Positions 1,156 to 51,202 of a stretch of DNA of 64,000 nucleotides are shown in pieces. The notes under the pieces are model-generated. The model ran no database searches. It saw only the letters and a program-made list of their open reading frames with translations, and was not told where the DNA came from. A program made the translations under genes and the position numbers. The first letter of the stretch is position 1. Each line of letters starts with the position of its first letter. Location: contig JADHWJ010000003.1 in NCBI GenBank assembly GCA_016783545.1, positions 1 through 64,000 on the forward strand, in the 5' to 3' direction. The stretch is from Candidatus Aenigmatarchaeota archaeon (GTDB taxonomy: Archaea > Aenigmatarchaeota > Aenigmatarchaeia > QMZP01).

Positions 1156-1355
1156 GCCGAGATGGCGGAACGGCAACGCGCACGCCTGGAAAAGGCTCTT
1201 TTAATCAAAGGGTTTTAGCAGAAAGGTACATTGTACGCATCATACGCGTTCATTGTCTCTATGAACTAGTTAGCGTGTGCCCTTGTGGCTTCTGGGTTCG
1301 AATGCATTGCTAAGTGCTCATATAGTTAGCAAAGCTGAATTTCCCAGTCTCGGCG
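1156..1355 (+). tRNA. tRNA-Ser (GGA), probably with two introns (anticodon loop and T-loop)
   Basis: Acceptor GCCGAGA / TCTCGGC with G73; CACGC-CTGGAA ... A-GCGTG anticodon arm split by about 80 nt; T-arm CTGGG-TTCGAAT ... CCCAG split by about 39 nt that contains a TTGCTAA/TTAGCAA hairpin. Confidence 0.75.
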
Positions 1356-9242: not shown

Positions 9243-12230
9243 CCCCGTTTAAATGACATTATATGAGAGAGCGGCTGGAATTAACCAACTGCTCTCCCTC
9301 AGACATGCTGTGGGAAGGAGGGCTCCTCCCCTACGACACCATGGACCACGGGACCTGGGTGGGCCGCATGCCCAAACCAAGCTTCCAGCTCACGTACTGA
9401 CCTTCCTCACCAGAGGGCAGGGCTACGTCCTTGTTGGCGCGCTGGCCCTGCTCCTGCTTGCACAGGGAATGCCAGCCGCCTTCGCCCTTGAACTTCATGA
9501 GCGTTGCCATGATCGGTCTGGTCTGGGGATTGTCGACACTCAGGCCAAACTTCTTGATGCGAAGGACAAAGTAGAGGAACTTCGCCCTCTCTGCATCCGA
9601 CCATCCCTTCACCTCTTTGGCCGTGAGAGCACCAAAGATCGTGCCAAGGGCTGACTCTGCCGCGCTTCTGTCGCCACGCTCAACAGTGATGAGTACGCCG
9701 ATGATGGCGTCGCCCGGATCGGTGGAAGCCGGGTCGAAGTCAACCACTGCCGTAGTAGGCACTATGGTTACGGGCGGTGCCGCCGGCGGAGTCGGCATGG
9801 AAAGAGGTGTAACATTCGGCGTACGCGGAGTGGTAGAAGGCCGTCTTCCTCTTCTTTCACTGCCCCGACGGGCCGGATCACTGCCCTCACACACCTCTTC
9901 GAGGAGTGCCATGTCATTCTCCCGTGTCATACCAGCAACTCTACGAGCGCGAACAGAATCACGACGGACAGAAGCACAGACGCGAGCCGCCGTGGAACCG
10001 AGATGCGTCAGTCTCTTGGCAGCAGCGCCTTGCCCGAAGACAGACTCCCAGTTCCATCCATCAGGGAACTCGACCGGGATCTCGGTCCGGACAGGGGCTT
10101 TCTTGCCAGGCATCTGCTTCTCAGAGATCGCCACAAAGCTGGTATGTGCAGATATCACGCCGTACTTGAGGCTGACCTCTGTCACCCCAACACTATCACC
10201 GGTCTCCTTGATCTTCTGCCTGGCCCAGAGCTGAGGCGCGAACGTGCACTCGTCTACGTCTGAGAGATTAACATCAAACGTCTGTGGAGCTCCAGCCGGA
10301 TCATTACCGGTTACCTTCACCGAAGCCGGAGCCTTCTTGCCTGCGCGAACCGTGATCACAGCAGGCATGTTCTGGAATACATCTGTCACACCGACCGCAT
10401 CAGTGTCCTTGCCGGCGTCGACCTTGACATCGGTCAACACAGGACCACTGAGAGTTCCCACGATCTTCTTCGCTGCACCTTCCATATCCTCATTGGGCAG
10501 GAAGTTCATGTTCACTCCATTGGTCAGCCTGGCAATCTGAGCCAGGGTAGCATCGTTCACTGCCGTATCAATGCCGATCGTGATCATCCGCACCCCGCCG
10601 GGGCTGGTGTCAACAGGATCCGTTGTCTGACCATCAGAGACGATGACCATGTACTTGCCAGAGTATTTGCCCTTGGCAAGCTCGGCATAGGCCAGCTTCA
10701 CGGCAGTGCCGAGATAGGTACTGTTCTCTGATTGCAGGCCTTGAACCATGGGAATTGGATCCTGCTCCCGGGCATCACCAAGCGGGTATATCACCTGTGC
10801 ATGTGTAGAGAACTTGATGATACCCACGTGGTGGCCGATGTTACTGTCCTTGATCTTCTGGATAAGGTCAGCAACCAGCCGTTTGAGGCCTTCGATCTTG
10901 ATGCCACTCATGCTACCTGAGACATCAAGGACGAATTCGATGTCCATGGGAATGGGATCGGCCTGGAACGGAGGGATGATGTTCAGCAGAACGAAGCTCT
11001 CCTTGGAAAGGGTTGCACTATGAACAGCCACCTGGGGAACAGTTGCCATGGGTGTGTAAACGAGGGTGAAGTCCCTGTTGGGAATAAGGTCCTCCACCAC
11101 CACGGTTGTCCCCCGCTTCGGCGTCAGCTCCTGCTCTGCCACCAACATCTCGTGGCTCGGGCAGGTGAGCTTACACCGGAATCCAGGCGAAAGCTTGACC
11201 CGGATGGCGGCGTTGTAGGGCACTCCTTCCTTGGTCGGAACAGGGGTGATCTCGGATGCATCATGAGTTACATCCGTATTCGGTGACCACCCGTCACCTG
11301 TCCGGTCAGTCGGCTTGCCAGCGATGAAACGAGGAGCTACCACCAAGGGAATGCGGAAACGCGCTCCATCTGCGCCCCAAGGTATGGTCTGGACGAACCT
11401 GACCTCGACCAGGATCTCCTCTCCTGGTTCAATGCCACCAACGTTCATGGTGAAGATGTTCTCTCTCTTCTGCTCCATGAGGGTGGCATGGTCGCCGGCT
11501 GCGACTGCGTCATCGTATTCCTTCTTTGCCTGTGCCTTCTCCTTGATTTCGGCAACAATGGTCTTGTCCTTGCCGATCGTCATCCGGCACCCTGTGACAG
11601 AGGCGTCGGCGGGCAGCGGAAAGCAATAGATGGCCTCCACGGCTTCGGTGTGTTTGTTCTCGTACTCTTGAGTACACACGACTTCTGCGGTTGTGCCAGC
11701 CACTGTTGCTTCGAACCCCAAGGCTTTCAACGGTACAAGAACCTTTGGGTCAGGGACATTATCAGGTGCGTCCACAGGCGAAACACCCCCACCGGGGTTT
11801 ACGACACATCCACCTTTTTCAGGCTTAACTGCACTACTCGGACGACTCATGGTGTTTCCTCCTGATCGTGCTCCCTTAAGAGCGTGACCGTTGGATATTC
11901 GGGACATAACCAGTTCTTTAAAGGCATCCTCACCGTAGTCCCGTTTCAGCATGGCAAGGAACCTTGCAGAATCTGCTCTTCTTCTACCACCTCCTTTCCA
12001 GAGAACATCTTGTTTTATTGCGTTTGGACTAAGAGTCCTAGCCAGCTCTATTATCTCTGGATTTCTTAGAGCTGACGCGGATTTCTCAGTCAGATCAGCC
12101 AGACTGTGCTTGGGCCTGTCCCTTGCTTTTGCCATTTCGGCTCCTCCTTTCTCCAGGACAGAGTAAAGACAAAAAGAAACCAGAACACTTAGAAAAAGCA
12201 CTAACCAAATCTGTCCACTTCTCTTAGAGA
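9243..12230. mobile_element. Foreign GC-rich cassette 1 (single VIT/vWA gene)
   Basis: Left edge CCCCGTTTAAATGACATTATA resembles the reverse complement of the shared end motif; right edge candidate CTGTCCACTTCTCTTAGAGATATC; sharp composition change at both sides. Confidence 0.55.
9331..12135 (-). CDS. VIT domain plus von Willebrand factor A domain protein
   Basis: VIT region (EVVCTQEYENKHTEAVEAIYCFPLPADASVTG) followed by vWA MIDAS DVSGSMSGIKI. Start re-assigned to the ATG after AAAGGAGG (MAKARDRPKHSLADL). Confidence 0.88.
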   Translation of the reverse strand: MAKARDRPKHSLADLTEKSASALRNPEIIELARTLSPNAIKQDVLWKGGGRRRADSARFLAMLKRDYGEDAFKELVMSRISNGHALKGARSGGNTMSRPSSAVKPEKGGCVVNPGGGVSPVDAPDNVPDPKVLVPLKALGFEATVAGTTAEVVCTQEYENKHTEAVEAIYCFPLPADASVTGCRMTIGKDKTIVAEIKEKAQAKKEYDDAVAAGDHATLMEQKRENIFTMNVGGIEPGEEILVEVRFVQTIPWGADGARFRIPLVVAPRFIAGKPTDRTGDGWSPNTDVTHDASEITPVPTKEGVPYNAAIRVKLSPGFRCKLTCPSHEMLVAEQELTPKRGTTVVVEDLIPNRDFTLVYTPMATVPQVAVHSATLSKESFVLLNIIPPFQADPIPMDIEFVLDVSGSMSGIKIEGLKRLVADLIQKIKDSNIGHHVGIIKFSTHAQVIYPLGDAREQDPIPMVQGLQSENSTYLGTAVKLAYAELAKGKYSGKYMVIVSDGQTTDPVDTSPGGVRMITIGIDTAVNDATLAQIARLTNGVNMNFLPNEDMEGAAKKIVGTLSGPVLTDVKVDAGKDTDAVGVTDVFQNMPAVITVRAGKKAPASVKVTGNDPAGAPQTFDVNLSDVDECTFAPQLWARQKIKETGDSVGVTEVSLKYGVISAHTSFVAISEKQMPGKKAPVRTEIPVEFPDGWNWESVFGQGAAAKRLTHLGSTAARVCASVRRDSVRARRVAGMTRENDMALLEEVCEGSDPARRGSERRGRRPSTTPRTPNVTPLSMPTPPAAPPVTIVPTTAVVDFDPASTDPGDAIIGVLITVERGDRSAAESALGTIFGALTAKEVKGWSDAERAKFLYFVLRIKKFGLSVDNPQTRPIMATLMKFKGEGGWHSLCKQEQGQRANKDVALPSGEEGQYVSWKLGLGMRPTQVPWSMVS

Positions 12231-21812: not shown

Positions 21813-22208
21813 AATTAAGATTGTATTGCTAACTAAAAAATCACTAATTTTGTCATTTTAGAGGGAGAAATAAGCTTATAAGGGGGAAATCTATATATTC
21901 TATATGTCACTACTATTTAGTGACTATAGTTGGGGAGAATTGGGAGGAGAAGTCCTGATTCTTCGTCTAAAACATAAGTCTAAATGGTGTAAAATCCATG
22001 TCGGCTATCACACGTATTAATCCATCTGTTTTGCTTCGGCATTACAGAACAAGAGAAAAACAAAAAAAATCGAACCCAAATATACGAAATAAAGGGGTGT
22101 TTTATCGCCTCTTCCTATCGATTTTTGGGTTTGATCTTACTAGTTTTACGAATCATTTCACAGTTTTCCGAGTGTCTTTTCTAGATCTCCGAAGGGGGGT
22201 GATACTAA

Positions 22209-22517
22209 GTGGATCTTCTGATCCAGATAAGGCCTTTTCTGGGTACGGTTCTCTGTGGTGCCGGTTTGTTCCTAGCACTCTGGAGATATCCCAGAAATGA
22301 GGGGCTGGTCAGGTTGGGGATTCTCACAGCCTTTGTGGGGCTCTCATATAACCTCAACCTGGACTGGGACGGAAAGTTCCTGTGTCCTGCCGTTTTCATG
22401 GCAGCAGGAGTGGTCATATCTCTCCTGGAAAGGCCATTGGACCGGGTTTTCTGTCTGATGGGTGGATTCATGGCCTTCTTGGGCCTGCTTTCCGCTCTTC
22501 TCTACCAGCCGTTTTAG
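22209..22517 (+). CDS. Small membrane protein in cassette 2
   Basis: Start preceded by AAGGGGGGTGATACTAAG; hydrophobic helices. Confidence 0.45.
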   Translation: MDLLIQIRPFLGTVLCGAGLFLALWRYPRNEGLVRLGILTAFVGLSYNLNLDWDGKFLCPAVFMAAGVVISLLERPLDRVFCLMGGFMAFLGLLSALLYQPF

Positions 22518-22528
22518 TGTAGAGACAG

Positions 22529-22548
22529 CCCTCGCCAACCCATGGCGA
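22529..22548. repeat. Cassette hairpin CTCGCCA-ACCCA-TGGCGAA; second copy TTCGCCA-GCCCA-TGGCGAA near 23550-23569
   Basis: Two near-identical inverted repeats after ORFs, plus a degenerate AGCCAGCCAATGGCT near 23223. Confidence 0.55.
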
Positions 22549-22740
22549 ACCGAAGGGTAGCAAGGTTGAAATTCCTGCTGCCGAATAATAATGGGTAAAA
22601 TGGTCCCGTGTGAACGCCTTCATGTGGCGGGGCTGTTGTATACTAAGTTCTGTGAATAATCACCTGGGATCACAATTGTCTTTCATTGTGAAAGGCTGAT
22701 CTTGGGTGGATATAGCCTCTAGATCCTGAAGGGGAACGCT

Positions 22741-23214
22741 ATGAGGCAGCTGGCAGCCGTTGCGTGCTTGTTGGTGGTGTCGGTGGCCTTCGGCCAGGAT
22801 TTCAGCAAGATGACCCCTAAGCAGATCATTGCTTGGGGCGAGCGCAGGAACGCCGAGATGGAGAAGGAGTTGGCCGAGGCCAAAAAGGTCCTCAAGGTCA
22901 TGGACACGCTCCGGAAGGTCAACGGCAAACTCAAGGGCACTGGGATGGTCCTGGAGACGTTTGCCCAGGCCGAAGCCCGCAGGCAGGCGTTCCTGAAGAG
23001 CTTCTCGAAGCCGTTGAGGGACAGCGCCAAGATCTGTCGGGAGGGCGCCGAGGAGCTCAGGAAGAACCGCGCCAACCTGAAGGTCGATCCGAACGACCCG
23101 GCCGAGGTCAAGGCCCTGAAGTTAATGTCCAAGGATATCCCCACCTGTTTCGACAACGCTGGGAATTCCCAGGACAAGGCGGCCGATGCCATCGAGGGCA
23201 AGACCTCGAAGTAG
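22741..23214 (+). CDS. Secreted coiled-coil-like protein in cassette 2
   Basis: Signal peptide MRQLAAVACLLVVSVAFGQ; ribosome-binding site GAAGGGGAACGCT; strong GC3. Confidence 0.65.
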   Translation: MRQLAAVACLLVVSVAFGQDFSKMTPKQIIAWGERRNAEMEKELAEAKKVLKVMDTLRKVNGKLKGTGMVLETFAQAEARRQAFLKSFSKPLRDSAKICREGAEELRKNRANLKVDPNDPAEVKALKLMSKDIPTCFDNAGNSQDKAADAIEGKTSK

Positions 23215-23383
23215 CCACCAATAGCCAGCCAATGGCTTAATTCGCGGGTTTGGGAGTACCTGCAGAAATTGGTAAAACTCCTTGGTCCTAGAAAGCAGCC
23301 ACCTCACAGTGGTTGGGACCTGGCAACGTTCAATGGGAACGGCTGAGAGCTGCAAGGAACCCGGAGAATGAGGGGGACTTGAG

Positions 23384-23539
23384 ATGGATGCTTATTTGTG
23401 GAATATGGTCAGGAGCTGTGGTGTGGACGCAACGCTGGAAAACCGACGCAACCTCCTCGAGGTTGCCGCTCGGAACTTCAATTTCGGGGCGCTTTTCCGA
23501 CTCACGAGGGACATCGAACTCTTGAAGTCGATGTTGTAG
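23384..23539 (+). CDS. Small 51-aa ORF in cassette 2
   Basis: Own translation MDAYLWNMVRSCGVDATLENRRNLLEVAARNFNFGALFRLTRDIELLKSML; preceded by GAGGGGGACTTGAG. Confidence 0.4.
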   Translation: MDAYLWNMVRSCGVDATLENRRNLLEVAARNFNFGALFRLTRDIELLKSML

Positions 23540-23685
23540 TGAAGGAACATTTCGCCAGCCCATGGCGAATAGTTTGGTCAACAAGAGAAAGGGGGTGGTT
23601 AAACCAACTACCTGAAATAACAAATAGGCTGGCCACTTGCCTCATTAATAAAAGTGGTGTCGTTTTATACTGTCATCTTAGAGGG

Positions 23686-24201
23686 CTATACATCAAAATA
23701 TGTCGGGTCGCTTTTTCTTTCTGCTTTTGGTATTTTTTCATCTAGATGAGCATCATATCTGTCAACTCTTACCTGGTTTGTTCCTGAATGACAGCTTAAA
23801 GTAATAATCTCTGGTACAAGACCAAACATTCTTCGTATATCCTTTGCTATCTTAATGCTATGTTTCTTTGATTTTCTGACAGCTCTATCCATATTACCAG
23901 CTGTTGTCTTCACTTCAACATTATAGATACCACTATTCACAATAAATACATCAGATATTCTTCTTTTTGCATTCCATTCAACATCAACATAAGGAGCAAA
24001 GTCTCCAAAGTCCATTCCAAACTCTTCAGGATTCCTGGCAAACGAAAGAAGAACATAATCATGCCACGTCCTTTCAAGATCTATTGCATTGCTATTCAGA
24101 TGAGCATATCTTTGTATGCTGCTGAATCTTGGATTTCTATATTCACTTAGTTCAGGACATTGTAGCCAATCTTCTTCCACCAAGTAAGGCAGATAGCTCA
24201 T
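23686..24201 (-). CDS. Putative PD-(D/E)XK-like nuclease-fold protein
   Basis: RISDVFIVNSGIYNVEVKTTAG resembles D...ExK; C-terminal stop abuts the cassette 2 end. Confidence 0.4.
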   Translation of the reverse strand: MSYLPYLVEEDWLQCPELSEYRNPRFSSIQRYAHLNSNAIDLERTWHDYVLLSFARNPEEFGMDFGDFAPYVDVEWNAKRRISDVFIVNSGIYNVEVKTTAGNMDRAVRKSKKHSIKIAKDIRRMFGLVPEIITLSCHSGTNQVRVDRYDAHLDEKIPKAERKSDPTYFDV

Positions 24202-39415: not shown

Positions 39416-40522
39416 CTAGTTGTTTTTATCCTTGACAATATGTTTTGAATGACGCCATGCCGTTGATGTAGATATATTTAGTTTTTTTCCTATACCAGAA
39501 TAGCTTAGCTCATTTTTCCTCAATTCTATTATTTTTGATTTCAACATTGAAACTTTCCAATTCGGAGTTTGATACATTTTATATCCATTAATTAAATTAT
39601 ACAAGTTCTCTTTTTTTCTTTTTATATTGAAATTAATACATTTAGCAAAATTTTCCAGTGGTCTTCTTGATTTAATAAATACACCAACTTTTCTAATACT
39701 TAGACCATCAATACCAACATCTTTTAGTAAGGAAGCTATCTCTTTTTTACCAATTTCATTTCTAGAACATAGAACCACACATTTTGTAGTATCGTAATTG
39801 GCAACAGATCCCTGAGAATCGGCCATTCCTTGGAGATATTTTGCTTTAATGTTTTTTGAAGCCTTTTTGATAACTTCTGGTATATCCCAAGTTTTTTCTT
39901 TAAAATTAGCATTATAATTTAGAATATCGTCACATACCGCTTTAGATTGTAAAATGCATTTATAATGTATTTTTGTATCACCTCTTCTCATTTTTAGTTT
40001 TACGATTTTAGGTTTTATTCCATACGTAATATTTAAACATAGACTGAAATATTTAATAAAATCCAAGTCAGTAGCTTCAAGGGCAACTCTATGAACTCCA
40101 TTGTCTTTCCTATACTCAATAAAACCATCTCCAGGTCCAACAACACCTAAAACATAAGCCTTTTCAGAAGTTAATTGATGATGTTTGTAGTTTAAAATTT
40201 TTTTAGGATCTCCTCGTTTTTTTAGATTAATATCCTCTTTATGTAAATGTCTTTGAACTGTAGAAAAACTAAAATCACAGTTTTGAGCTATCTGATTTAT
40301 TGACCATCCTTTTTTATACAATTCGACAAACCTTCTATGTAGGTATATGTTAACTGCATCCTTTGGGGATATCCTAAATCTTACATTCTTTTTTAATAAA
40401 TTATTCCTTACACTAGTCTTACTCATACCTATTTTTTTGGATATTTTATCTGTTCCCAGACCCTTTTTATATAACAATACCATCGATTTCTGTAAGCCTT
40501 CTGAACTTTTCTTATTGATCAT
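39416..40522 (-). CDS. LAGLIDADG-type homing endonuclease with several HTH segments
   Basis: YVLGVVGPGDGFIEY and AKYLQGMADSQGSVA dodecapeptide-like motifs; start re-assigned to ATGATCAATAAG overlapping the L6 stop. Confidence 0.8.
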   Translation of the reverse strand: MINKKSSEGLQKSMVLLYKKGLGTDKISKKIGMSKTSVRNNLLKKNVRFRISPKDAVNIYLHRRFVELYKKGWSINQIAQNCDFSFSTVQRHLHKEDINLKKRGDPKKILNYKHHQLTSEKAYVLGVVGPGDGFIEYRKDNGVHRVALEATDLDFIKYFSLCLNITYGIKPKIVKLKMRRGDTKIHYKCILQSKAVCDDILNYNANFKEKTWDIPEVIKKASKNIKAKYLQGMADSQGSVANYDTTKCVVLCSRNEIGKKEIASLLKDVGIDGLSIRKVGVFIKSRRPLENFAKCINFNIKRKKENLYNLINGYKMYQTPNWKVSMLKSKIIELRKNELSYSGIGKKLNISTSTAWRHSKHIVKDKNN

Positions 40523-41072
40523 GTTCAATCTCCTTAGCTTTCTGAGTGAGCCAGCAGCCATCCTGGAAAACCCTTCTGTCATAACCTCTTACAATTGTTA
40601 ACTGCTCAATTTTTGCAGCTGCCTGTCCCACAGTATCTCTGTTGATACCTGAAATTACTACTTCATCCTTTTGTATTTTAACATCAACACCTTCTGGCAG
40701 GCTAACCTTCCTTGGTTTCTTCTCTCCCATGAAATTGTTAATTATGAATTCATTACTCTCTGTACTTAATTTAACAGGAAAATGCGTATATACCATTTTC
40801 ATCTTTGCTTCGAATCCCTTTTCAACCCCAGCAAGCATGTTATTCAGGTGTGCGGCCCATGTACCTAATATAGCCTTTATTTTCTTGTTTTTTTCTTCTG
40901 TACTAATTTTAATATTATTTCCCTTTACAGAAAGCTTTACAAGCGGGTGATTAAATATTCTTTCAATTTCGCCTTTTGATCCTTTTACAGCTACTTTTTT
41001 CCCTTCCTGCTTCACATCTATTCCTTCTGGAATAACGATCTCTTTCTTTGCTATTTCTGGCATGATTATCAC
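40512..41072 (-). CDS. rpl6: Ribosomal protein L6
   Basis: IPEGIDVKQEGKKVAVKGSKGEIER; QKDEVVISGINRDTVGQAAAKIEQ. Confidence 0.93.
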   Translation of the reverse strand: MIIMPEIAKKEIVIPEGIDVKQEGKKVAVKGSKGEIERIFNHPLVKLSVKGNNIKISTEEKNKKIKAILGTWAAHLNNMLAGVEKGFEAKMKMVYTHFPVKLSTESNEFIINNFMGEKKPRKVSLPEGVDVKIQKDEVVISGINRDTVGQAAAKIEQLTIVRGYDRRVFQDGCWLTQKAKEIEHDQ

Positions 41073-50807: not shown

Positions 50808-51011
50808 TGGGCCCGAAGGGATCTTCAGCTCTGCTGAAGGTATGTGTTTCAGCAAAACATTTGAACCCTCGACTCTCCGGTGTCTTCTCTGTCATCGCGG
50901 TTATACCGCTAAACACGCTTTTAACTGATTAAAAGCTTCACCGGGATTTAGCACCCTCGGATGCTCTAACCATTTCAGGGAGTTATTCGCTCCAGACTGA
51001 GCTACGGGCCC
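50808..51011 (-). tRNA. Class I tRNA with candidate introns in D-loop, anticodon arm and T-loop (isotype unresolved; Phe-GAA is one reading)
   Basis: Acceptor GGGCCCG / CGGGCCC with A73; D-arm GCTCAGTCTGG^...^TTAGAGC; T-arm GAGGG-TTCAAAT^...^CCCTT; GCTTTTAA/TTAAAAGC and GCGGT/ACCGC hairpins within the anticodon-region insertion. Confidence 0.65.
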
Positions 51012-51100: not shown

Positions 51101-51202
51101 GCCCCGATAGTGTAGTGGTTAATTTTAGTTGCTTTGCAACTAAGAGTCAATGCATAAGGCCCTGTCACGGCCTTGACGCGGGTTCAAATCCCGCTCGGGG
51201 CG
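51101..51202 (+). tRNA. tRNA-Asp (GTC) with D-loop intron
   Basis: Acceptor GCCCCGA/TCGGGGC with G73; anticodon arm AGGCC-CTGTCAC-GGCCT intact; T-arm GCGGG-TTCAAAT-CCCGC; D-loop carries about 30 nt with perfect hairpin TTAGTTGC-TTT-GCAACTAA. Confidence 0.85.

Follow-up and report, generated by a model that had tools for sequence, protein, structure and literature searches.

Transposition of introns between archaeal tRNA genes is already known. The case reported for the Thermoproteales in 2010 (Fujishima 2010, Molecular Biology and Evolution, MBE 27:2233, by way of PMC4090602 and PMC4033280) was explained by copying between genes, and a review calls the mechanism unknown (PMC4090602). ARMAN-1 and ARMAN-2 carry non-canonical introns at various tRNA positions together with an epsilon2-type EndA (Fujishima 2011 and Hirata 2012, cited in PMC4033280 and PMC12397907), a type of enzyme reported to cleave non-canonical introns (PMC4033280). 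Bulge-helix-bulge (BHB) introns also occur in archaeal 16S rRNA (PMC4496867), and a tRNA intron of Caldiarchaeum was derived from an integration event (PMC3293823). Here we analyse a window of 64,000 nt, the first part of contig JADHWJ010000003.1, which is archaeal as judged from its genes and belongs to a genome (G000) of 885 kb that is 70% complete. Its tRNA-Ser(GGA) and tRNA-Lys(UUU) genes each contain a very short BHB intron in the T-loop. In our reading, to which we give a probability of about 0.8, these introns are paralogues in a family ("family A") that has multiplied by copying into many tRNA T-loops in one phylum of small (DPANN-like) archaea.

The tRNA-Ser T-loop intron is 39 nt long (positions 1303 to 1341, forward strand) and that of tRNA-Lys 38 nt (50822 to 50859, reverse strand). 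A covariance model built from 13 introns (R1) matches them with 59.9 bits (E-value = 3e-14) and 67.6 bits (E-value = 1.5e-16), respectively; an intron-only model (R2) scores 34.8 and 48.9 bits and returns exactly these limits. An earlier note on this DNA had described two inserts of about 38-39 nt with the same T-loop position and hairpin layout. The quoted letters are present exactly and both inserts do lie between nucleotides 59 and 60, but the quoted limits, while denoting the same introns, were shifted by one T, and the interval 1303-1346 included four bases of the 3' T-stem. In both precursors the T-stem is followed by a UUCR:YGAA helix, two bulges (AAU and NNU), a short GC:GC inner helix and a hairpin of 6-7 bp; tRNA-Ser has UUCG/UGAA with the bulges AAU and UUU. 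Across 13 family members, 98% of the pair cells of this BHB (a 4-bp helix with two 3-nt bulges) are standard. Archaeal EndA cuts after the second bulge base. The introns are placed at 59/60 because cleavage was assumed at that point. This position is already listed for archaeal introns (PMC4090602). Removal of the inserts leaves a normal T-arm in the window tRNAs, and ARAGORN then recognises tRNA-Ser(GGA), tRNA-Leu(UAG), the majority of the other hosts and, after its three additional introns are taken out, tRNA-Lys(UUU). Being too short for a ribozyme core or an endonuclease, the inserts do not qualify as group I, group II or homing-endonuclease introns; Rfam at gathering score finds no group I or group II intron RNA in the window.

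How far the likeness exceeds what splicing imposes was assessed against 4000 random introns of matched architecture and composition, with the inner GC letters held fixed and TGAA excluded because it is forced by pairing with TTCR. The Ser and Lys introns are 62% identical, a value reached by 26 of the 4000. The same model R1 detects six copies in the genome, in tRNA-Ser, -Lys, -Arg, -Leu, -Pro and -Ile, and it is this family, unlike the single Ser/Lys pair, that is decisive for relatedness: none of the 4000 random introns reaches the identities of Lys/Leu (87%), Lys/Arg (78%), Lys/Ile (77%) or Lys/Pro (69%). Elsewhere in the phylum (G034, G027, G035, G132, G142 and G150, with unrelated hairpins, and G096), T-loop introns at the same position with the same BHB lack the TTGCT...AGCA letters; the hairpin letters are therefore not forced. 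The homology proposed in the earlier note is thus borne out by the six-copy family, and the common letters extend beyond those dictated by the BHB, contrary to the outcome that the note had named as refuting it.

We compared 158 genomes of the phylum, all within one class. Counted by hairpin letters from about 80 R1 matches in the order, family A has about 45-50 members in about 20 of the 158 genomes and in most isotypes; families f6 and f27 of the class contribute additional ones. Isotypes were assigned by ARAGORN on spliced sequences and several by hand (e.g. Lys, Leu and Arg of G012); the 45-nt variants are misaligned by MAFFT, and counts including them rest on anchoring at the two ends. 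The introns being too short for a tree, pairwise identities and permutation were used instead. Among 47 introns, mean identity is 0.68 for different isotypes of the same genome, 0.60 for the same isotype in different genomes and 0.63 for pairs sharing neither; the genome effect is significant (p = 0.0004) and the isotype effect is not (p = 0.97). For the 3' bodies of these tRNA genes the pattern is the opposite, with 0.66 for the same genome, 0.73 for the same isotype and 0.66 for neither. Intron likeness thus tracks the genome and tRNA-body likeness the isotype, against tRNA relationships. The T-stems around the six copies of the window's genome are all different, which indicates that the intron alone, and not the whole T-arm, was copied; copying of the whole T-arm is accordingly rejected. 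These sequence comparisons support the spread of family A between tRNA genes, which the earlier note had suggested together with the intron-versus-tRNA comparison. Transposition in the Thermoproteales, as described in the sources cited above, is likewise recognised by similar introns shared among isotypes within a genome, contrary to the tRNA phylogeny. The present case differs in concerning another phylum and essentially one T-loop family at 59/60.

Transposition of the Thermoproteales type occurs at several tRNA positions; family A, among the sites covered here, is seen at 59/60, in 16S rRNA and inside other introns. One R1 match falls in the 16S rRNA of G024 (locus L119), where the Rfam archaeal small subunit alignment shows a 46-nt insert after GGGUAAA. 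This insert has the variant core of the same genome's own copies (TGCTCGCTGCGCTC). Its exon-pairing strand is UUAC, which fits the exon GUAA, whereas T-loop copies have UGAA for UUCR. It resembles the known 16S BHB introns (PMC4496867) in occupying a conserved 16S loop and differs from them in being a relative, of about 45 nt, of tRNA T-loop introns, too small to hold a homing endonuclease. A few tens of bases downstream, this 16S gene has a second insert of about 46-48 nt, probably another tiny intron.

Nested copies were revealed by R2. Long introns belonging to a second family house seven of them in G017, and similar ones occur in G002 and G013. The G017 host introns start in T-loops in the loci that could be read through, with the arrangement ...GTAAACGGCCTA[40-nt copy]AAGCGTTAACGG, and in five of six loci filled host units have empty ones next to them. 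The ends of the copies are identical across T-loop, 16S and nested sites, and some copies have hairpins inserted in their own loop. The second family (CCCTTTAGGCCAAGTAAACGGCCTAAAGCGTTAACGGAAAGAACGCTGCCGC and variants) is arrayed in long composite T-loop introns of G017 (L154, L169, L172-L175); its relatives seem present elsewhere in tRNAs of G015 and in T-loops of G013, G027 and G035. Weak R2 matches outside tRNAs, in intergenic repeats of G010 and in G036, G028:C5 and G027, were rejected as probable chance or unrelated repeats. G010 (L177, L178) has a dispersed palindromic repeat, AAGTTGCGCTGCTTGCGCAGGCACTTGCCTGCTGGCAAATGCTTCGCAACTT, outside tRNAs, the first hairpin of which resembles hairpin 1 of the fold described below.

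Most family A copies keep a covarying fold that splicing does not require. It consists of hairpin 1 (HP1, YGC-N-CTGC..GCAG-GCR) and hairpin 2 (HP2, N-TTCAGC-ARA-GCTGAA-N), and is mutually exclusive with the BHB. In 25 aligned members, 31 cells have both sides of a pair changed, versus 12.1 in shuffles (0 of 500 as high), at most 9 in slid controls and 5 in the intron-internal BHB helices. The outer HP2 pair occurs as A-T, T-A, C-G and G-C, often several kinds in one genome, and in the BHB the base on its 3' side is left unpaired in a bulge; one further pair added to HP2 is unsupported. HP2 is complete in the 16S copy (AGTAAGC/GCTTACT), and a nested copy from G002 pairs perfectly throughout both hairpins. 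By computed energies, nested copies prefer the two hairpins by 6-13 kcal/mol, while 35 of 39 T-loop copies prefer the BHB (median 3.8 kcal/mol) and the 16S copy likewise prefers the single hairpin. RNAalifold predicts part of HP1 and nothing more, so that the two-fold claim rests on the counts for the named structures. Together with the 16S copy with its changed exon-pairing strand and the copies nested in another intron family, this second fold sets the present case apart from the Thermoproteales transposition as described in those sources, and these are unusual additions to a known phenomenon.

The copies would be spliced as follows. A T-loop copy and the T-stem would fold into the BHB, the T-loop UUCR pairing with YGAA at the 3' end of the intron; an epsilon2-type EndA would cut it and the exons would be joined. 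The insert may be tolerated in the T-loop because EndA would remove it. The EndA of the window's genome (392 aa) is related over its full length to the ARMAN-2 epsilon2 EndA 4fz2 (residues 5-392 aligned, E-value = 3e-101) and agrees with that type, whose chain of about 395 aa has three units, alphaN-alpha-betaC. The enzyme is thus of the ARMAN-1/2 type by sequence, which, taken with a phylum whose 158 genomes fall in a single class, makes a Micrarchaeota-like DPANN host likely. The accounts of ARMAN-1/2 in PMC4033280 and PMC12397907 deal with enzyme specificity and multiple-intron tRNAs; a spreading T-loop family is the feature here. New copies may arise at the DNA or RNA level and enter AA^TCC-like sites, where the 3' strand is kept or adjusted so that it matches the exon. 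The copied unit would originally have had the two-hairpin fold, which in the pre-tRNA would be an alternative state leaving the T-loop free. We tentatively propose that a mobile two-hairpin unit of about 38 nt inserts precisely at AA/TCC (or similar) and that its exonic copies are moulded into BHB introns, the pre-tRNA being bistable, with the T-loop either exposed for end-processing and modification or hidden in the BHB for splicing; this extension is possible rather than probable. As in Caldiarchaeum, a tRNA gene would be the target and an intron would be gained from a mobile element; there, site-specific recombination of a larger element is involved, and none such is seen in the present case.

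One small unit is found here in four settings: in many tRNA T-loops, in 16S rRNA, nested in another intron family beside an empty host, and carrying inserted hairpins in its own loop. Its ends and target are therefore defined, and archaeal tRNA intron gain becomes testable.

The two-hairpin fold may be an unselected by-product of template switching in quasi-palindromes, which would make TTCAGC and GCTGAA match. HP2 is indeed a quasi-palindrome with a 3-nt loop, and the exon, the arm and the 3' strand are related words, from which it appears that a mutational route could yield the matches. HP1, however, also covaries without being a neighbour copy of HP2, and the nested G002 copy that is perfect in both hairpins is not expected from such a route, which we regard as possible but doubtful. 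Another explanation is concerted evolution, in which gene conversion kept old introns at fixed T-loop sites alike within each genome and new insertions were few. It accounts for the same-genome likeness, and the anchor TTCRAA...TCC is shared by all tRNAs. But the differing T-stems that flank the six copies would require tracts shorter than about 50 bp, and the copies in 16S rRNA and at nested sites, which have the same ends, as well as the many family-free genomes, are left unexplained; we consider it unlikely. Old vertical inheritance, by which a T-loop intron of the ancestral tRNA set was merely retained, would fit the presence of the intron in Lys genes of several genomes and some orthologous pairs that are nearest neighbours (Leu of G004 and G009, Gly of G007 and G023). 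It is very improbable in view of the overall lack of isotype signal (0.600 versus 0.626 for unrelated pairs) beside a clear genome signal, which already points away from introns mirroring isotype, and of the copies in 16S rRNA and within other introns. Convergence, with the letters forced by BHB pairing and a hairpin preference of EndA, is less probable still and largely refuted, for although TGAA and the inner GC recur in almost every T-loop intron irrespective of relatedness, and the window pair alone lies within reach of the null model, the same-BHB introns with unrelated hairpins and the Lys/Leu, Lys/Arg and Lys/Ile pairs, far past that model, contradict it, and loop letters with no BHB role (GCAGGCGC) are also in common.

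For the copying of family A itself, the sequences display likeness beyond the forced letters, six copies in one genome, genome-wise clustering, and 16S and nested copies with the same ends. Several points weigh against it. The Ser/Lys pair by itself is only moderately beyond chance, weak and suggestive. The 16S copy is single and comes from a draft genome of about 350 contigs; R2, which revealed the nested copies, leans towards the two-hairpin fold, and that fold was spotted in the same sequences later used to test it. The copies are so short that intron trees are poor and a count of independent moves is unreliable, and the same-genome likeness could include gene conversion among existing introns instead of new insertion. 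Removal by EndA and ligation of the exons are predicted from sequence. Among the nine carriers tested, no mobilising enzyme is shared by all, a weak absence in draft genomes: reverse transcriptase genes are found in G000 and G004, and Y1 transposases in G000, G015 and G017, only. A reverse transcriptase or an IS200/IS605-type transposase as the common mobiliser was rejected accordingly.

Both window genes have further introns. The tRNA-Ser(GGA) gene (1156 to 1355, forward strand), a complete cloverleaf in ARAGORN after T-loop splicing, has an 80-nt anticodon-loop intron called by ARAGORN at 1192 to 1271. The tRNA-Lys(UUU) gene (50808 to 51011, reverse strand) has four introns in a 204-nt precursor. 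Besides the T-loop intron these lie in the D-loop (22 nt, 50970 to 50991, splice point inferred), the anticodon stem at 30/31 (21 nt, 50937 to 50957, placed from the mature cloverleaf) and the anticodon loop (48 nt, 50881 to 50928). Taking out all four leaves a complete 75-nt cloverleaf, called tRNA-Lys(ttt) by ARAGORN. The Lys(UUU) gene of G005 (L101/L107) has introns at the same four places and a fifth at about 53/54, all five removed in silico; the Lys(CUU) gene of that genome has the same 53/54 and T-loop inserts. Four and five introns per tRNA, as predicted from in silico splicing, compare with a maximum of three given for the Thermoproteales in PMC4033280. ARAGORN with default settings calls no tRNA in the window and Rfam at gathering score one, the genes being missed because they are broken up by introns; that standard tRNA finders overlook such multi-intron genes is a warning for annotation. 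A third tRNA, Asp(GUC)-like and apparently with a D-arm intron, lies at 51101-51202 (forward strand), divergent from tRNA-Lys.

Elsewhere in the window, GC-rich islands stand at 9331-12201 (55%) and about 22000-24000 (49%) against about 35%, possibly reflecting recent import or a binning problem; the first encodes a protein with VIT/VWA domains. A LAGLIDADG_3 protein with helix-turn-helix domains is encoded at 39416-40582 (reverse strand), within a ribosomal operon, where its gene overlaps the end of rpl6 and precedes an rpl32e-like gene.
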